Shown: positions 25,639 to 62,749 of the stretch, piece by piece
How positions within the stretch are numbered: position 1 is the first letter of the stretch
Layout of the letters: each line of letters opens with the position of its first letter
Notes under the pieces: model-generated
Told to the model about the DNA's origin: nothing
Databases searched by the model: none
The model's input: only the letters and a program-made list of their open reading frames with translations
Origin: Candidatus Lindowbacteria bacterium RIFCSPLOWO2_12_FULL_62_27
GTDB taxonomy: Bacteria > Lindowbacteria > 2-12-FULL-62-27
Direction of reading: 5' to 3'
NCBI GenBank assembly: GCA_001784175.1
Contig: MFPR01000011.1
Location: forward strand, 19,091-83,090
DNA: 64,000 nt
Position numbers and translations under genes: made by a program

Positions 25639-27072
25639 ATGACTGACCCACAGGCGCCGACGCCGGAATCCAAAATCCAAAATCCAAAATCCAAAATCTC
25701 CGGAATGATGTGGGGCGGCCGCATGAAGGGCAAGCTCGACCGCCGCGCGCTGGAGTTTTCGTCTTCCATCGCGCTGGACATCCGGCTCCTGCCCTACGAC
25801 GTGTTGGCCAGCATCGCGTGGGCCGAGGCGATCCGGAAAGCCGGCATTCTCTCTGCGGGAGAGCTTCGGCGCATGAAAGGCGCGCTCCGCCTGATTGCCC
25901 GCGAGCCGATTCCGTCCCCTGCGGAACTCGCAGTCTACGAGGACGTTCACAGCTTCGTCGAATCCCGCCTGCGCGACCGGATCGGCGACACGGCCGACAA
26001 ACTGCATACCGGCCGATCAAGAAACGACCAGGTCCTGACCGACGTCGCGCTCTACATCCGGCGGTCGGCCGACCGGATCGTGCGGGAATTGAAAAATCTT
26101 TCGAAGGTTTTCTTGAACCTCGCGTCCAAAAACAAAAAAGTTCCCATGCCGGGCTTTACGCACTTGCAGCCGGCCCAGGTCGTCACCCTCGGCGCGCATT
26201 TCATGGCCTACGCCGAAATGTTTCTCCGCGATCTCGGCCGAATCAAGCTGCTCCTCCAGCCGCTCGACGCCTGTCCGCTCGGGTCCGGCGCCATCGGCGG
26301 AACCACCATCCCGGTCGACCGCGACTTTCTCGCGCGCCGGCTTGGCTTTCCGCGGCCGACGGCCAGCGCCATGGAGACGATCGCCGGCCGCGACCTCGCC
26401 AGCGATTTCCTCTACGCGCTGACCATCCTCATGATTCATCTTTCAAGATTCTCGGAGGAGGTCATCCTCTGGTCCAACCCCTACTTCGGATTTGTCCGCC
26501 TGCCCGACCGGTTTTCGACCGGCTCGTCCCTCATGCCGCAAAAACGAAATCCGGATTTGTCGGAACTCACGCGCGGCCGCGCCGCCCGCGCCATCGCCGA
26601 TCTCACAGGCATCTTGACGCTCCAGAAAGGCCTGCCCCTCACGTACAATCGTGACCTGCAGGAGGACAAGGTGTATCTGTTCGATCTCGTCGATCTCGTC
26701 ACCGCCACCCTCCGGGTTCACGTCCGCATGGTGCCGCGGTTTAAATTCAACCGCAAACGGCTCCGGGAAGCCTGCTCCGTCGGATACATGGAGGCCACGG
26801 ACCTTGCGGAGTATCTCGCCAAAAAAGGCGTGCCCTTCCGCCAGGCCCACGAGATCATCGGCCGGCTGGTCGCGCGCCTCGAGCGCCGCCGCCGGAAATT
26901 CCGCGACCTGACGCTGAAGGACCTTCAGGCATTTGACCCCCGCTTCGGCCCGGATGTCGTGGCCCTGCTGAACGCCGAGCAATCACCGTGGAGGAAGCAG
27001 ACCTACGGCTCCGTGTCGCCGGAATCCGTCGGCCGCCGCGTCATCCGCCTCCGGCTGACGAGGATTTATTAG
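25639..27072 (+). CDS. argH: Argininosuccinate lyase
   Basis: Cleaves argininosuccinate to arginine and fumarate. The fumarase/aspartase-superfamily markers are WGGRMKGKLD at the start, HTGRSRNDQVLTDVALY, GFTHLQPAQ, and the signature GSSLMPQKRNPD. From the ATG at 25639 the protein would carry about 22 extra residues encoded largely by a 7-bp tandem repeat (four ATCCAAA units, 25668-25695). The family normally starts close to the WGGR motif, so the ATG at 25705 or 25708 is a serious alternative. The gene follows argG by three bases. Confidence 0.95.
   Translation: MTDPQAPTPESKIQNPKSKISGMMWGGRMKGKLDRRALEFSSSIALDIRLLPYDVLASIAWAEAIRKAGILSAGELRRMKGALRLIAREPIPSPAELAVYEDVHSFVESRLRDRIGDTADKLHTGRSRNDQVLTDVALYIRRSADRIVRELKNLSKVFLNLASKNKKVPMPGFTHLQPAQVVTLGAHFMAYAEMFLRDLGRIKLLLQPLDACPLGSGAIGGTTIPVDRDFLARRLGFPRPTASAMETIAGRDLASDFLYALTILMIHLSRFSEEVILWSNPYFGFVRLPDRFSTGSSLMPQKRNPDLSELTRGRAARAIADLTGILTLQKGLPLTYNRDLQEDKVYLFDLVDLVTATLRVHVRMVPRFKFNRKRLREACSVGYMEATDLAEYLAKKGVPFRQAHEIIGRLVARLERRRRKFRDLTLKDLQAFDPRFGPDVVALLNAEQSPWRKQTYGSVSPESVGRRVIRLRLTRIY
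25668..25695 (+). repeat. 7-bp tandem repeat in argH 5' region
   Basis: Four perfect copies of ATCCAAA in a row. Shorter versions of the same CCAAAAT-like string occur near 7519 and 7826. The repeat is AT-rich against a GC-rich background and falls either inside the argH N-terminus or in its leader. Confidence 0.85.
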
Positions 27073-52468: not shown

Positions 52469-52477
52469 ATTATACCA
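52469..52477 (-). promoter_or_regulatory. Internal promoter of adenylate cyclase gene
   Basis: Minus strand TATAAT preceded by TGG (extended -10) and followed by eight bases to the ATG. Its TAA is the glpK stop codon. No good -35 is visible. The transcript would be leaderless and would allow cAMP synthesis independent of glpK induction. Confidence 0.45.
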
Positions 52478-53975
52478 CACGCCGAACGCAGATGCGCCAT
52501 TTTTTTTGCAGAGCCGCCGCCCGCGCCCTCGAGAGCCTCGGCCGGAAAACGGTCGTGCCGGAAAGGCCGGCCGGGTCAGCGCTTCCGGCGCTCCACATCG
52601 ACGCGCCGATCCCGGCGAGCCGCGCGGCGCCCCACGATGTCAGTTCCGCCATGCGGGGCCGGACCACGGGAAGCCCCAAAAGGTCCGCTTGGAATTGCAT
52701 GAGAAAATTGTTCCGCGTGGCGCCGCCGTCCACACGCAGTTCCCGGATGCGGATCGACGGTTTTCGCGTCGAACAGATCGACCGCATGAGGTCAAACACG
52801 TCGCACGTTTGATACGCAATCGATTCCAGCGTGGCGCGGATCAGGTGCGCGCGCGTCGCGCCGCGCGTCAGGCCGAAAATCGCGCCGCGCGCGTCCGGCC
52901 GCCAGTGCGGCGCGCCGAGGCCCGTGAAGGCCGGCACCACCACTACGCCGGCGCTGTCCGGAACGCTCCGCGCCCACCGCTCGCTCTCGGCGGAACTTCG
53001 GATGATCTCGATCCCGTCCCGAAGCCACTGGACCGCGGCGCCCGCAATGAACACCGAGCCTTCGAGCGCGTAGGCCGGGCCGCCGGCGCTGTCACAGGCC
53101 AGCGTGGTCAACAGGCCCTCGCCCGACAAGACGAAGCGGTCCCCGGTATGCAGCATCAGAAAACAGCCGGTGCCGTACGTGTTCTTCATCCCGCCCGCGC
53201 GCGTCGCGCCCTGCCCGAACAGCGCCGCCTGCTGATCGCCGGCCATTCCCGTGATCGGAATCCCGCCGGGAAGGCCGGCCGCTCCGCGCGTGACGCCGAA
53301 TCGCCCGGCGGAGGGCCGCACAGCGGGAAGGTGGAGCGCGGCGGGAACGCCGAGGAGATCCAGAAGCTCCGGGTCCCACGCGCGCTTGCGGATGTTGAAC
53401 ATCAGGGTCCGCGACGCGTTCGTGAAGTCGGTGGCGTGCGTGCCGCCGGTAAGATGCCACAGGAGCCACGCGTCGATGGTTCCAAAACAAACGTCGCCTA
53501 TTTTGACGCGCGCCCGCAGTCCCGCCACGTGGTCCATCATCCATCGGACTTTCGTGCCCGAAAAATATGGATCCAGCACAAGACCGGTCCGCGCGCGCGC
53601 CGCGCGCTCCAGGCCGCGCCCGCGAAGGTCCGCGCAGATTTCGGCCGACCGCCGGCATTGCCACACGATCGCGCGCGACCCTGCCACCGGCCGGCCGGTG
53701 CGCCGGTCCCAGAGAACGAAGGTCTCGCGCTGATTGGTGATCCCGATCGCGCCGATGCGTTTCCAGAGCCCGCGGCGGTCCACGGCCTCCTCGACCACGC
53801 GAAACACACTGCGCAAAATCTCCATCGGATCGTGCTCGACCCAGCCGGGTCTTGGATAATACTGGGTGAACTCGCGGTAGGCGCTCGACACCACCCGGCC
53901 GTCTTCGGAAAAAACAAACGCCCGGCTGCCGGTCGTGCCCTGGTCGATGCTCAAAACGAGGGATCGTCCGCTCAT
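52470..53975 (-). CDS. glpK: Glycerol kinase
   Basis: Phosphorylates glycerol to glycerol 3-phosphate, the substrate of GlpD encoded two genes downstream. The 501-residue FGGY kinase has IDQGTTGSRAFVF, TNQRETFVLWDRRTGRPV, GTIDAWLLWHLTGG, ITGMAGDQQAALFGQ, NTYGTGCFLMLHTG and ELRVDGGATRNNFLMQFQADLL. The last residues are unusually basic (RPRLSRARAAALQKKWRICVRRVV). No glycerol facilitator gene is adjacent. Upstream, TTGAAC abuts a 52-bp palindrome and is followed 17 bases later by a poor -10, a layout expected of a regulated promoter. Confidence 0.95.
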   Translation of the reverse strand: MSGRSLVLSIDQGTTGSRAFVFSEDGRVVSSAYREFTQYYPRPGWVEHDPMEILRSVFRVVEEAVDRRGLWKRIGAIGITNQRETFVLWDRRTGRPVAGSRAIVWQCRRSAEICADLRGRGLERAARARTGLVLDPYFSGTKVRWMMDHVAGLRARVKIGDVCFGTIDAWLLWHLTGGTHATDFTNASRTLMFNIRKRAWDPELLDLLGVPAALHLPAVRPSAGRFGVTRGAAGLPGGIPITGMAGDQQAALFGQGATRAGGMKNTYGTGCFLMLHTGDRFVLSGEGLLTTLACDSAGGPAYALEGSVFIAGAAVQWLRDGIEIIRSSAESERWARSVPDSAGVVVVPAFTGLGAPHWRPDARGAIFGLTRGATRAHLIRATLESIAYQTCDVFDLMRSICSTRKPSIRIRELRVDGGATRNNFLMQFQADLLGLPVVRPRMAELTSWGAARLAGIGASMWSAGSADPAGLSGTTVFRPRLSRARAAALQKKWRICVRRVV

Positions 53976-54005: not shown

Positions 54006-54057
54006 AAAGTGATATCATGATATCATGATAGCTATCATGATATCATGATATCACTTT
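54006..54057. promoter_or_regulatory. Perfect 52-bp palindrome between glpK and gltX
   Basis: Twenty-six bases from AAAGTGATATCATG are followed by their exact reverse complement, centred between 54031 and 54032 (AG|CT). Each arm contains tandem ATATCATG octamers, so the element is also a direct repeat. It is AT-rich in GC-rich surroundings. It contains the gltX stop codon (54051-54053), and its edge supplies the first two bases of TTGAAC upstream of glpK. It could be a multi-site operator for glpK, a cruciform, or a hairpin that ends or protects gltX mRNA. No T-run follows a possible hairpin beyond three bases. Confidence 0.85.
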
Positions 54058-55517
54058 TGGGTCGCGAGGGCTTCCTGCGCGGCGTCGATCCTGAGCAGCG
54101 TTTCGGTCCGGCCCAGGAGCGCGGCCGACTGGAAAATCGGCGGCGAAACGGACTTGCCGGTCAGCATGACCCGGATGGCCTGGCCGACCTCCTTGAACTT
54201 GAGGCCGCCGCGCTCGGAAAAGTCCCGGAAAAATATCTCCATTGACTCGCCTTCAAAATCGGCCAGCGCCTCGAATTCCCGCCGGATCTTTTCGACCAGG
54301 TCCTTCCGGCCTTCCAGAAATTTCTTGAACGCCTGCTCGTCGTACGTTTTCGGGCGTACCCAGAAAAACCGGACATAGTCCGCGATCTCGGCCAGCGTGT
54401 CGCCGCGCTCGCCGTTTACTTTCAGCATCGCGCTCAGGTCCGCCGTCGACGGCGGAGTCTCGCCGCGCCGCGTCAGATAATCGGCCAGGAGCCGCGCCCG
54501 CGCTTCCGGCGGCCCGCCGTGGACGTGCTTGCCGTTGAGGAAGCGAAGCTTCGTCAGATCAAACACGGCGGCGGCGGTGCCGACGCGGTCCAGCGAAAAC
54601 GCGCGGATGAGTTCGTCGCGGCCAAGGATTTCCCTGCCCTCTGGATGGCTCCAGCCGAGCAGCGCCAGAAAGTTCAGGACCGCGTCCGGCAAAAAACCGG
54701 CCTCCCGGTACTCGAGCACGTTCTCCGCGCCCTCCCGTTTCGACAGGCGCTTGCGGTCGGACCCCAGAATCAGCGGGATGTGGACGTAGGTCGGGAGTTT
54801 CTCGCCGAGGGCCTGATAGATCACGATCTGTTTCGGCGTGTTGTCGAGGTGGTCGTCCCCGCGGATGACGTGCGTCACGCCGGCGGCGATGTCGTCGCAG
54901 ACGACCGCGAGATGATAGAGCGGCCGGCCGTCGCCTTTCATCACAATGATGTCGTCCAGATCCTCCTCACGCAGCGTGATCGTCCCGTGCAGAAGGTCCT
55001 GATAGGTGATCCCGCCGGCCGGCGTCGGAGACGCCGGCACTTGGGGCGCCGGAGGCGCTGATCCGGCCGGTTTGATCACGCGCACCACGAACCGCTCGCC
55101 GGCCGCCGCCCGGCGGTCGGATTCGGCATGGTCCAGCCGCCGGCACGTCCTGTCGTACCGGTAGGGCTTCCCCTGCGTCCGCATCGCCACGCGCTTGGCT
55201 TCCAGACTCTCCTCCGTGCAGAAACACCGGTAGGCGGCGCCTTGCTCGAGGAGCCGCTCGGCGGTCTGGCGGTGGATGCCGGCGTTCCGGCTCTGATAAA
55301 CGATTTCGCCGTCCCAGTCGAGCCCCAGCCACTTCATCGCGGCGATGATCTGGTCCGCGTATTCAGCCCGCGACCGCTCCCGGTCCGTGTCCTCGATCCT
55401 CAGCAAAAATTTCCCGCCCTGAGCGCGCGCGAACAGAAAATTGAACAGCGCCGTCCGCGCGCTGCCCACGTGCAAGGTCCCGGTCGGCGACGGCGGAAAC
55501 CGCGTGATGATCGTCAT
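54051..55517 (-). CDS. gltX: Glutamyl-tRNA synthetase
   Basis: Charges tRNA-Glu. The 488-residue class I enzyme begins ITRFPPSPTGTLHVGSARTALFN (HVGS as the HIGH motif), has HVIRGDDHLDNTPKQIVIYQALG and the KMSKS equivalent KRLSKREG, and a C-terminal helical anticodon domain. There is one copy here; whether the genome also has GlnRS or GatCAB cannot be judged. The ATG at 55517 overlaps the rpiA stop by ATGA; the longer upstream frame is non-coding. The stop codon lies within the 52-bp palindrome. Confidence 0.96.
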   Translation of the reverse strand: MTIITRFPPSPTGTLHVGSARTALFNFLFARAQGGKFLLRIEDTDRERSRAEYADQIIAAMKWLGLDWDGEIVYQSRNAGIHRQTAERLLEQGAAYRCFCTEESLEAKRVAMRTQGKPYRYDRTCRRLDHAESDRRAAAGERFVVRVIKPAGSAPPAPQVPASPTPAGGITYQDLLHGTITLREEDLDDIIVMKGDGRPLYHLAVVCDDIAAGVTHVIRGDDHLDNTPKQIVIYQALGEKLPTYVHIPLILGSDRKRLSKREGAENVLEYREAGFLPDAVLNFLALLGWSHPEGREILGRDELIRAFSLDRVGTAAAVFDLTKLRFLNGKHVHGGPPEARARLLADYLTRRGETPPSTADLSAMLKVNGERGDTLAEIADYVRFFWVRPKTYDEQAFKKFLEGRKDLVEKIRREFEALADFEGESMEIFFRDFSERGGLKFKEVGQAIRVMLTGKSVSPPIFQSAALLGRTETLLRIDAAQEALATQK

Positions 55518-57254: not shown

Positions 57255-58815
<1,561 letters not shown>

Positions 58816-58827
58816 CTAAGGAGAATC

Positions 58828-58849
58828 GTTCACTCCTCCGGGAGTGAAC
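58828..58849 (+). other. Hairpin after 16S rRNA
   Basis: GTTCACTCC and GGAGTGAAC form a perfect nine-base stem with a TCCG loop, 12 bases after the 16S 3' end. It is probably a precursor-processing structure. A T-run 40 bases later (58887-58893) is too far away to make it a terminator. Confidence 0.5.
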
Positions 58850-58907
58850 ACCCCCCGCGCACGGGGTCGGACTTCTGTAGGCGTCCTTTTTTTCTAAATT
58901 TTGATGG

Positions 58908-58980
58908 GGGGCTGTAGCTCAGCTGGGAGAGCACCTGCTTTGCAAGCAGGGGGTCGCCCGTTCGAATCGGGTCAGCTCCA
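58908..58980 (+). tRNA. tRNA-Ala (TGC)
   Basis: Cloverleaf by eye: acceptor GGGGCTG/CAGCTCC (one G-U), D-arm GCTC/GAGC, anticodon stem CCTGC/GCAGG with loop TTTGCAA (anticodon TGC), T-arm GCCCG/CGGGT with TTCGAAT, discriminator A. No CCA is encoded, so tRNA nucleotidyltransferase must add it. Confidence 0.97.
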
Positions 58981-58992
58981 TGATCCGGTTTC

Positions 58993-59064
58993 GGGCGCAT
59001 AGCTCAGTGGCAGAGCACAGTCCTGATAAGGCTGGGGTCGAAGGTTCGATACCTTCTGCGCCCA
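58993..59064 (+). tRNA. tRNA-Ile (GAT)
   Basis: Acceptor GGGCGCA/TGCGCCC, D-arm GCTC/GAGC with a short loop, anticodon stem CAGTC/GGCTG with loop CTGATAA (anticodon GAT), T-arm GAAGG/CCTTC with TTCGATA, discriminator A. No CCA is encoded. The spacer order is Ala then Ile, the reverse of the common Ile-Ala order. Confidence 0.97.
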
Positions 59065-59078
59065 TGATCAACAGATAT

Positions 59079-59093
59079 TGTTCTTTGACAACA
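59079..59093 (+). promoter_or_regulatory. boxA antitermination site before 23S
   Basis: TGTTCTTTGACAACA is a close match to bacterial rrn boxA and lies about 80 bases before the 23S gene, the usual position for a second antiterminator site. Confidence 0.6.
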
Positions 59094-59170
59094 CCATAGT
59101 GTGTAAGTCTCCAAACACGGATGGAAGTTTGGAAGTTTAGAGCCACAGGCAAACGCACTACATGTGCGTT

Positions 59171-62525
<3,355 letters not shown>

Positions 62526-62626
62526 CCTTTTTTTTCTTTTCGCGACACTTGGCTCGGGTCGCAACCGTGTTTGGGACTTACACACTATGTTTTTTACTCA
62601 CAGGATAATATTGATTTGAACACATG

Positions 62627-62749
62627 TGGCTTGGTGGCCACACCGATCGGGACACACCCGGATCCCATTCCGAACCCGGAAGTTAAGCCGATCAGGGCCG
62701 ATGGTACTCGGAGGGCAGCCTCCCGGGAGAGTAGGACGCCGCCAGGCCT
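62627..62749 (+). rRNA. rrf: 5S ribosomal RNA
   Basis: The terminal helix pairs GGCTTGGTGGC (from 62628) with GCCGCCAGGCC (to 62748). The internal block CCGATCGGGACACACCCGGATCCCATTCCGAACCCGG-type loop B/C, the GAAGTTAAGC motif and the GGGAGAGTAGG segment are typical 5S. Mature ends are estimated to within a few bases. Confidence 0.95.

Follow-up and report, generated by a model that had tools for sequence, protein, structure and literature searches.

A palindromic octamer array between gltX and glpK belongs to a dispersed family in two genera of Candidatus Lindowbacteria and may be bound by an orphan ribbon-helix-helix protein

What purpose could a long, perfect palindrome serve at the junction of two housekeeping genes? 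The palindrome in question lies between gltX and glpK in a 64,000-nt stretch of contig MFPR01000011.1 (hereafter ‘the window’) from the genome of Candidatus Lindowbacteria bacterium RIFCSPLOWO2_12_FULL_62_27 (G000), and had been proposed, from the letters alone, to be a cooperative operator for the glycerol genes. Its two arms (AAAGTGATATCATGATATCATGATAG and CTATCATGATATCATGATATCACTTT) are 26 bp each, 100% complementary and joined by a spacer of 0 nt. From base composition, 7e-11 such palindromes are expected per window, and the runners-up among the spacerless perfect palindromes of the window have 9-bp arms. The original prediction was accurate in describing a perfect, spacerless 52-bp palindrome far beyond chance that contains the gltX stop codon, and the 8-bp internal period it claimed is likewise present, although the unit is better written as TGATATCA, itself palindromic. 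In this notation, the element reads AAAG - TGATATCA - TGATATCA - TGATAGCTATCA - TGATATCA - TGATATCA - CTTT (Table 1). As the central dodecamer amounts to an octamer plus four bases, the half-array on one side is shifted in phase by 4 bp relative to that on the other. Promoter-like hexamers (TATCAT and extended TG) score within the array on both strands, which is due to the repeat sequence itself.

Table 1. Features of the palindromic element and its flanking genes (positions refer to the window).
Feature	Position	Strand	Remark
Whole palindromic element	54006..54057	.	contig C11 copy, one of 15 in G000
Left AAAG flank; element consensus (C)AAAG...CTTT(G)	54006..54009	.	flank profile, 33 non-convergent copies
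Box 1, TGATATCA, self-palindromic octamer	54010..54017	.
Box 2, TGATATCA	54018..54025	.
Central dodecamer TGATAGCTATCA	54026..54037	.	GC centre in all G000 copies; TA in most G001 copies
Box 3, TGATATCA	54038..54045	.
Box 4, TGATATCA	54046..54053	.	minus strand gives gltX stop TGA (54053-54051)
Right flank CTTT	54054..54057	.	flank profile
gltX (glutamyl-tRNA synthetase), upstream gene	54051..55517	-	Pfam tRNA-synt_1c + Anticodon_2
glpK-like FGGY carbohydrate kinase, downstream gene	52470..53975	-	Pfam FGGY_N + FGGY_C

Elsewhere, the window contains an rrn operon (57255-62747) whose 23S rRNA gene harbors a group I intron (61830-62139; Rfam RF00028, 62.9 bits), as well as a perfect tandem array of the 7-bp unit AATCCAA in 4.6 copies (25667-25698).

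The palindrome has relatives. Within the 4.39-Mb genome, there are 15 near-identical, dispersed elements of the form AAAG-(TGATATCA)2-3-TGATAGCTATCA-(TGATATCA)2-3-CTTT. The sequence TATCATGATA occurs 70 times, versus once for a reversed control, and nearly all of its occurrences fall within the 15 full elements; AAGTGATATCA occurs 20 times and, with one exception, at array ends. Candidatus Lindowbacteria nzgw232 (G001), which represents a sister genus within the same family, contains at least 25 elements that share these boxes and the (C)AAAG...CTTT(G) ends; the smallest have two boxes, the largest five boxes and the centre. The third genome of the phylum in our collection, from a third genus of that family (G002, ~81% complete), contains no array. 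The arrays span 44-60 bp. Among 386 genomes, the array TGATATCATGATATCA was found in two (G000 and G001), and no exact array was present in viral contigs.

All 40 copies in the two genomes reside at gene junctions. About half of them extend into the 3’ terminus of the preceding gene, which takes its stop codon from a TGA in box one, two or three; the frame of the TGA differs from box to box. In G000, the neighbors are unrelated housekeeping genes (APC permease, trmFO-xerC, macA-macB-like, gltX-glpK, moaC-bioF, sixA, lpxB, pdxA-rsmA, glyA and rseP-proS; names read from the sequence and partly profile-tested), to which G001 adds an apparent atpG-atpD and guaA. No coherent regulon emerges from the flanking genes, and in G001 several arrays are placed between genes that converge, leaving a repressor nothing to target. 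An excess of co-directional junctions was considered as a functional sign and dropped, since the background of the window itself is tandem at 42/47 junctions. At L215 and L213 (both preceding a PI3K-like gene), L023 and L030, the downstream gene apparently starts at the TTG of the element end CACTTTG; the element may therefore provide a stop codon for the gene before it and also a start codon for the gene after it.

Comparison with relatives suggests how the copies arose. G002 retains the order rpiA-gltX-glpK, yet there gltX abuts glpK, with the gltX TGA located within the glpK start region and the element absent, which indicates that the element copies were inserted. The G002 counterparts of three further loci (L017, L019 and L024) are stop/start overlaps without an element, and those of L018, L026 and L027 are empty as well. 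At 12 comparable loci in G001, the element is present in five and missing from seven. The five loci shared by G000 and G001 (moaC-bioF, amidohydrolase-glyA, the 3’ end of a cyclase gene, the region upstream of the PI3K-like gene, and a ribbon-helix-helix (RHH) gene) compare with ~0.2 expected by chance (P ~1e-6). Most simply, these comparisons mean that insertion added the copies, in some cases before the two genera split.

Once in place, the copies did not decay. Proteins flanking the shared loci are mostly 64-83% identical between G000 and G001, so unconstrained DNA would be expected to have drifted; across all 40 copies, ~8 positions in 1716 nt deviate from the box pattern, and conservation declines stepwise across the AAAG/CTTT flanks. 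The GC centre occurs in 15/15 G000 copies (one with a change beside the centre), whereas the G001 centres are TA in 20/25 copies and CCAC in two, with three copies having no centre. Each copy at a shared locus bears the centre of its own genome (GC in G000; TA or CCAC in G001). Together with the scant drift of the arrays, these own-genome centres indicate that the arrays are maintained and change in concert. Genome-specific centres would be expected either from homogenisation or from arrays that co-adapt to a factor acting in trans.

A candidate for such a factor is encoded at one of the shared loci, which is the leader of an orphan, single-copy gene for a 65-aa, FitA-like RHH protein (C30:79899-80093 in G000). 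In both genomes, the array lies 12-17 bp from the RHH start, with unrelated neighbors upstream; the two RHH loci share no conserved neighbor and have no conserved toxin gene beside the RHH gene. The G001 protein scores 29.0 bits (E=1e-6) against PF22513 (FitA-like RHH; cut-off 27) and the G000 protein 22.6 bits, which is below that cut-off. A single-sequence structure model (pLDDT 70) predicts helices at residues 10-22 and 27-39, forming a two-helix core after an N-terminal strand, and its Foldseek neighbors are mostly RHH proteins (NikR, VapB, AmrZ, CopG, MatP, Arc, CdbA and FitA), all at E >0.1. Searching the 386 genomes with the protein returned G000 and G001 only, that is, the same two—related—genomes that contain the arrays. 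The gene is absent from G002 (~81% complete), and no homologs were found in phages, plasmids or viral contigs. With six matches to the RHH_1 profile in the G000 genome, RHH genes are scarce enough to make the adjacency of array and RHH gene unlikely by chance.

A DNA-only pattern scan of 85k genomes yielded five cyanobacterial loci, and in 5/5 of these a small RHH-like gene starts 36-40 bp downstream of the dyad TATCATGATA-N2-TATCATGATA. The products of these Nostocales genes are orthologous, 57-66 aa long and begin with MPRKKL. Protein similarity led to two further copies on Nostoc plasmids (pNOS7524.01 and pNLP3) that also carry the dyad, and the seven Nostocales dyad loci (L043, L046, L048, L054, L062, L218 and L219) are located in a divergent intergenic region. 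The Nostocales protein bears a weak likeness to RHH_9, RHH_1 and RelB/DinJ, with RHH_9 the best match at E=3e-4, below the Pfam cut-off, and its model (single-sequence, pLDDT 66) predicts two helices. There was no detectable homology between the Lindowbacteria RHH protein and the Nostocales protein beyond the fold. Judged by sequence, the same dyad is tied to small RHH-like genes in Nostocales independently of Lindowbacteria. Pattern matches in Magasanikbacteria and Paceibacterota fall within genes and look like chance. A Planctomycetota MAG, DeMMO6_1, contains several TTATCATGATAATTATCATGATAA-type palindromes in unrelated places (L045, L047, L053, L061 and L068); they are of another palindrome type and possibly constitute another dispersed family.

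On balance, we favor the interpretation that the palindrome is a dispersed, cooperative binding array of the MetJ/omega kind for the orphan RHH protein, spread by insertion. Each TGATATCA octamer would be the box for one RHH dimer, and several dimers would bind cooperatively side by side, as do MetJ on met boxes and omega/ParB-pSM on heptads, with the central 4-bp phase shift producing two mirror-image half-arrays. The array in the leader of the RHH gene would most likely mediate autoregulation. The remaining copies would have been inserted into junctions, often giving the upstream gene its stop codon, and would then have been kept and co-adapted to the RHH protein of each genome. Bound arrays at the other 14 sites might repress or road-block the downstream gene, or else mark the chromosome as is the case with CdbA. 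The missing regulon and the convergent G001 sites argue that transcription control is only part of the story. The array copies are also more uniform than is usual for known operators, which counts against the favored interpretation. The earlier idea that dimers of a single regulator line up on the 8-bp period thus stands in kind, given an orphan RHH gene that is led by an array and co-occurs with arrays in 2/386 genomes; the glycerol target assigned to it does not.

MetJ, a small RHH protein, provides a close precedent for the layout. The met boxes (AGACGTCT) are 8 bp long, self-palindromic and arranged in sets of two to five contiguous copies (PMC12925634), and the MetJ/Arc family is named in PMC4803016. 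The present element likewise consists of self-palindromic 8-bp boxes, at least two of which are contiguous and in tandem. However, the box sequences are unrelated, the central 4-bp phase shift is peculiar to the element described here, its uniform copies are scattered among unrelated genes rather than over an amino-acid regulon, and the candidate partner is a FitA-like RHH protein, not MetJ. Because TGATATCA differs from AGACGTCT and the adjacent genes are not met genes, the element is not a MetJ operator. For omega/ParB of pSM19035, RHH dimers occupy contiguous heptads, with several arrays per replicon and one at the protein’s own promoter (PMC9499535; PMC4803016). Contiguous short repeats and multiple arrays are features common to both systems, as would be an array at the binding protein’s own gene if the candidate is the partner, but the omega repeats are 7-bp, non-palindromic (WATCACW) and plasmid-borne. 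The omega system works with a ParA partner. Pfam ranks the candidate protein nearest to FitA-like RHH proteins. Unlike the operators of FitAB and other RHH antitoxins, however, the arrays described here are tandem rather than a single spaced inverted repeat, have genome-wide copies and come without a conserved toxin gene.

The strongest competing explanation, to which we grant a real but minor chance, is a mobile palindrome of the REP/MITE kind that spreads autonomously or through a transposase acting in trans, has no cellular binding partner, and lies next to the RHH gene by coincidence. REP/REPIN sequences are dispersed, extragenic, hairpin-forming palindromes that are near-identical within a genome (PMC3116915), and the copies reported here are also dispersed, extragenic, palindromic and near-identical. 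Such mobility would also be consistent with relatives in which the same gene pairs overlap or abut without the element, with lineage-specific copies such as that at the apparent atpG-atpD junction of G001, with stop codons in several frames that would lessen the damage of insertion, and with the occurrence in G000 of Y1 transposases and of a second dispersed, palindrome-like repeat family. Against it, no target-site duplications were seen. REPs flank their RAYT, whereas none of the Y1-transposase genes (eight in G000, six in G001) lies near an element, and it is for want of an adjacent RAYT that we do not classify the element as REP/REPIN; AT-rich octamer arrays and the preservation of shared loci between genera likewise set it apart. 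Moreover, old shared copies are undecayed, their centre changes concertedly, and arrays and RHH gene co-occur exactly.

The second repeat family is represented within gltX itself, at positions 55013-55070 on the minus strand of the window, by a 58-bp, GC-rich, palindrome-like sequence (CCGGCCGGATCAGCGCC...CCGACGCCGGCCGGCG). It is inserted in frame, adds 16 residues that are missing from the G002 GltX, and matches ~25 other places in G000 and some in G002. In this respect it resembles the Rickettsia palindromic elements found within genes.

It is also conceivable, if improbable, that the RHH protein and its arrays constitute, in this uncultured phylum, a chromosome-marking (nucleoid or segregation) system with a MatP/matS- or omega/parS-like function, whose MetJ-like arrays would have spread by insertion into operon junctions. 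The matS site is a single short palindrome and is confined to Ter. CdbA is an RHH nucleoid protein with many chromosomal sites and no single regulon (PMC7156744). MatP/matS and CdbA resemble the present case in pairing a small RHH protein with numerous sites across the chromosome that belong to no one regulon, but matS is single and CdbA sites are loosely conserved, as opposed to the 44-60-bp arrays in Lindowbacteria.

A similarly low probability applies to the palindrome acting at the RNA level, namely as an mRNA hairpin of 24-26 bp that would lie between the genes of an operon and serve as a terminator or attenuator, an RNase III site or a protector of transcript ends. The predicted hairpin is very stable (-47.4 kcal/mol in context, z -7.4), copies occupy 3’ ends and junctions of co-directional genes, and extra octamers lie on the downstream (RNA-3’) side in ~14/17 asymmetric copies with a defined direction, albeit as a weak signal (P ~0.013). 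Yet the co-directional placement equals the window background, and a stem would require neither self-palindromic octamers nor a uniform sequence nor a genome-specific centre. In addition, single-sided changes are found without compensation, and minimal two-box copies occur. On the transcribed strand, no T-run follows the stem (CACTTTGAAC), which rules out an intrinsic terminator; the stem is AT-rich, and the site returned by a terminator scan lies on the plus strand only, with the genes on the minus strand.

A gap of 30 bp separates the array from the glpK start, and its 8-bp dyads would suit an operator. That the array is an operator dedicated to the glycerol genes, as originally predicted, is refuted by 14 other copies at unrelated junctions and by G002, which lacks the element before glpK despite retaining rpiA-gltX-glpK—the very observation named in advance as speaking against it—and we regard this role as extremely improbable, while an incidental effect on glpK is possible. 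An assembly fold-back is excluded, as the array is present 15 times in G000, and the independently assembled G001 has at least 25.

What appeared to be a lone palindrome is now a family of 40 copies, spread over two genera, for which a binding candidate can be named and cloned. The dyad TATCATGATA in front of the Nostocales RHH-like gene suggests a wider recognition theme that is accessible in culturable strains. If the RHH protein binds, a repressor-type operator array would be acting as a dispersed, concertedly evolving repeat, and REP-like repeats and transcription-factor sites, usually separate subjects, would be joined. Such binding would also provide a first handle on regulation or chromosome biology in Candidatus Lindowbacteria.
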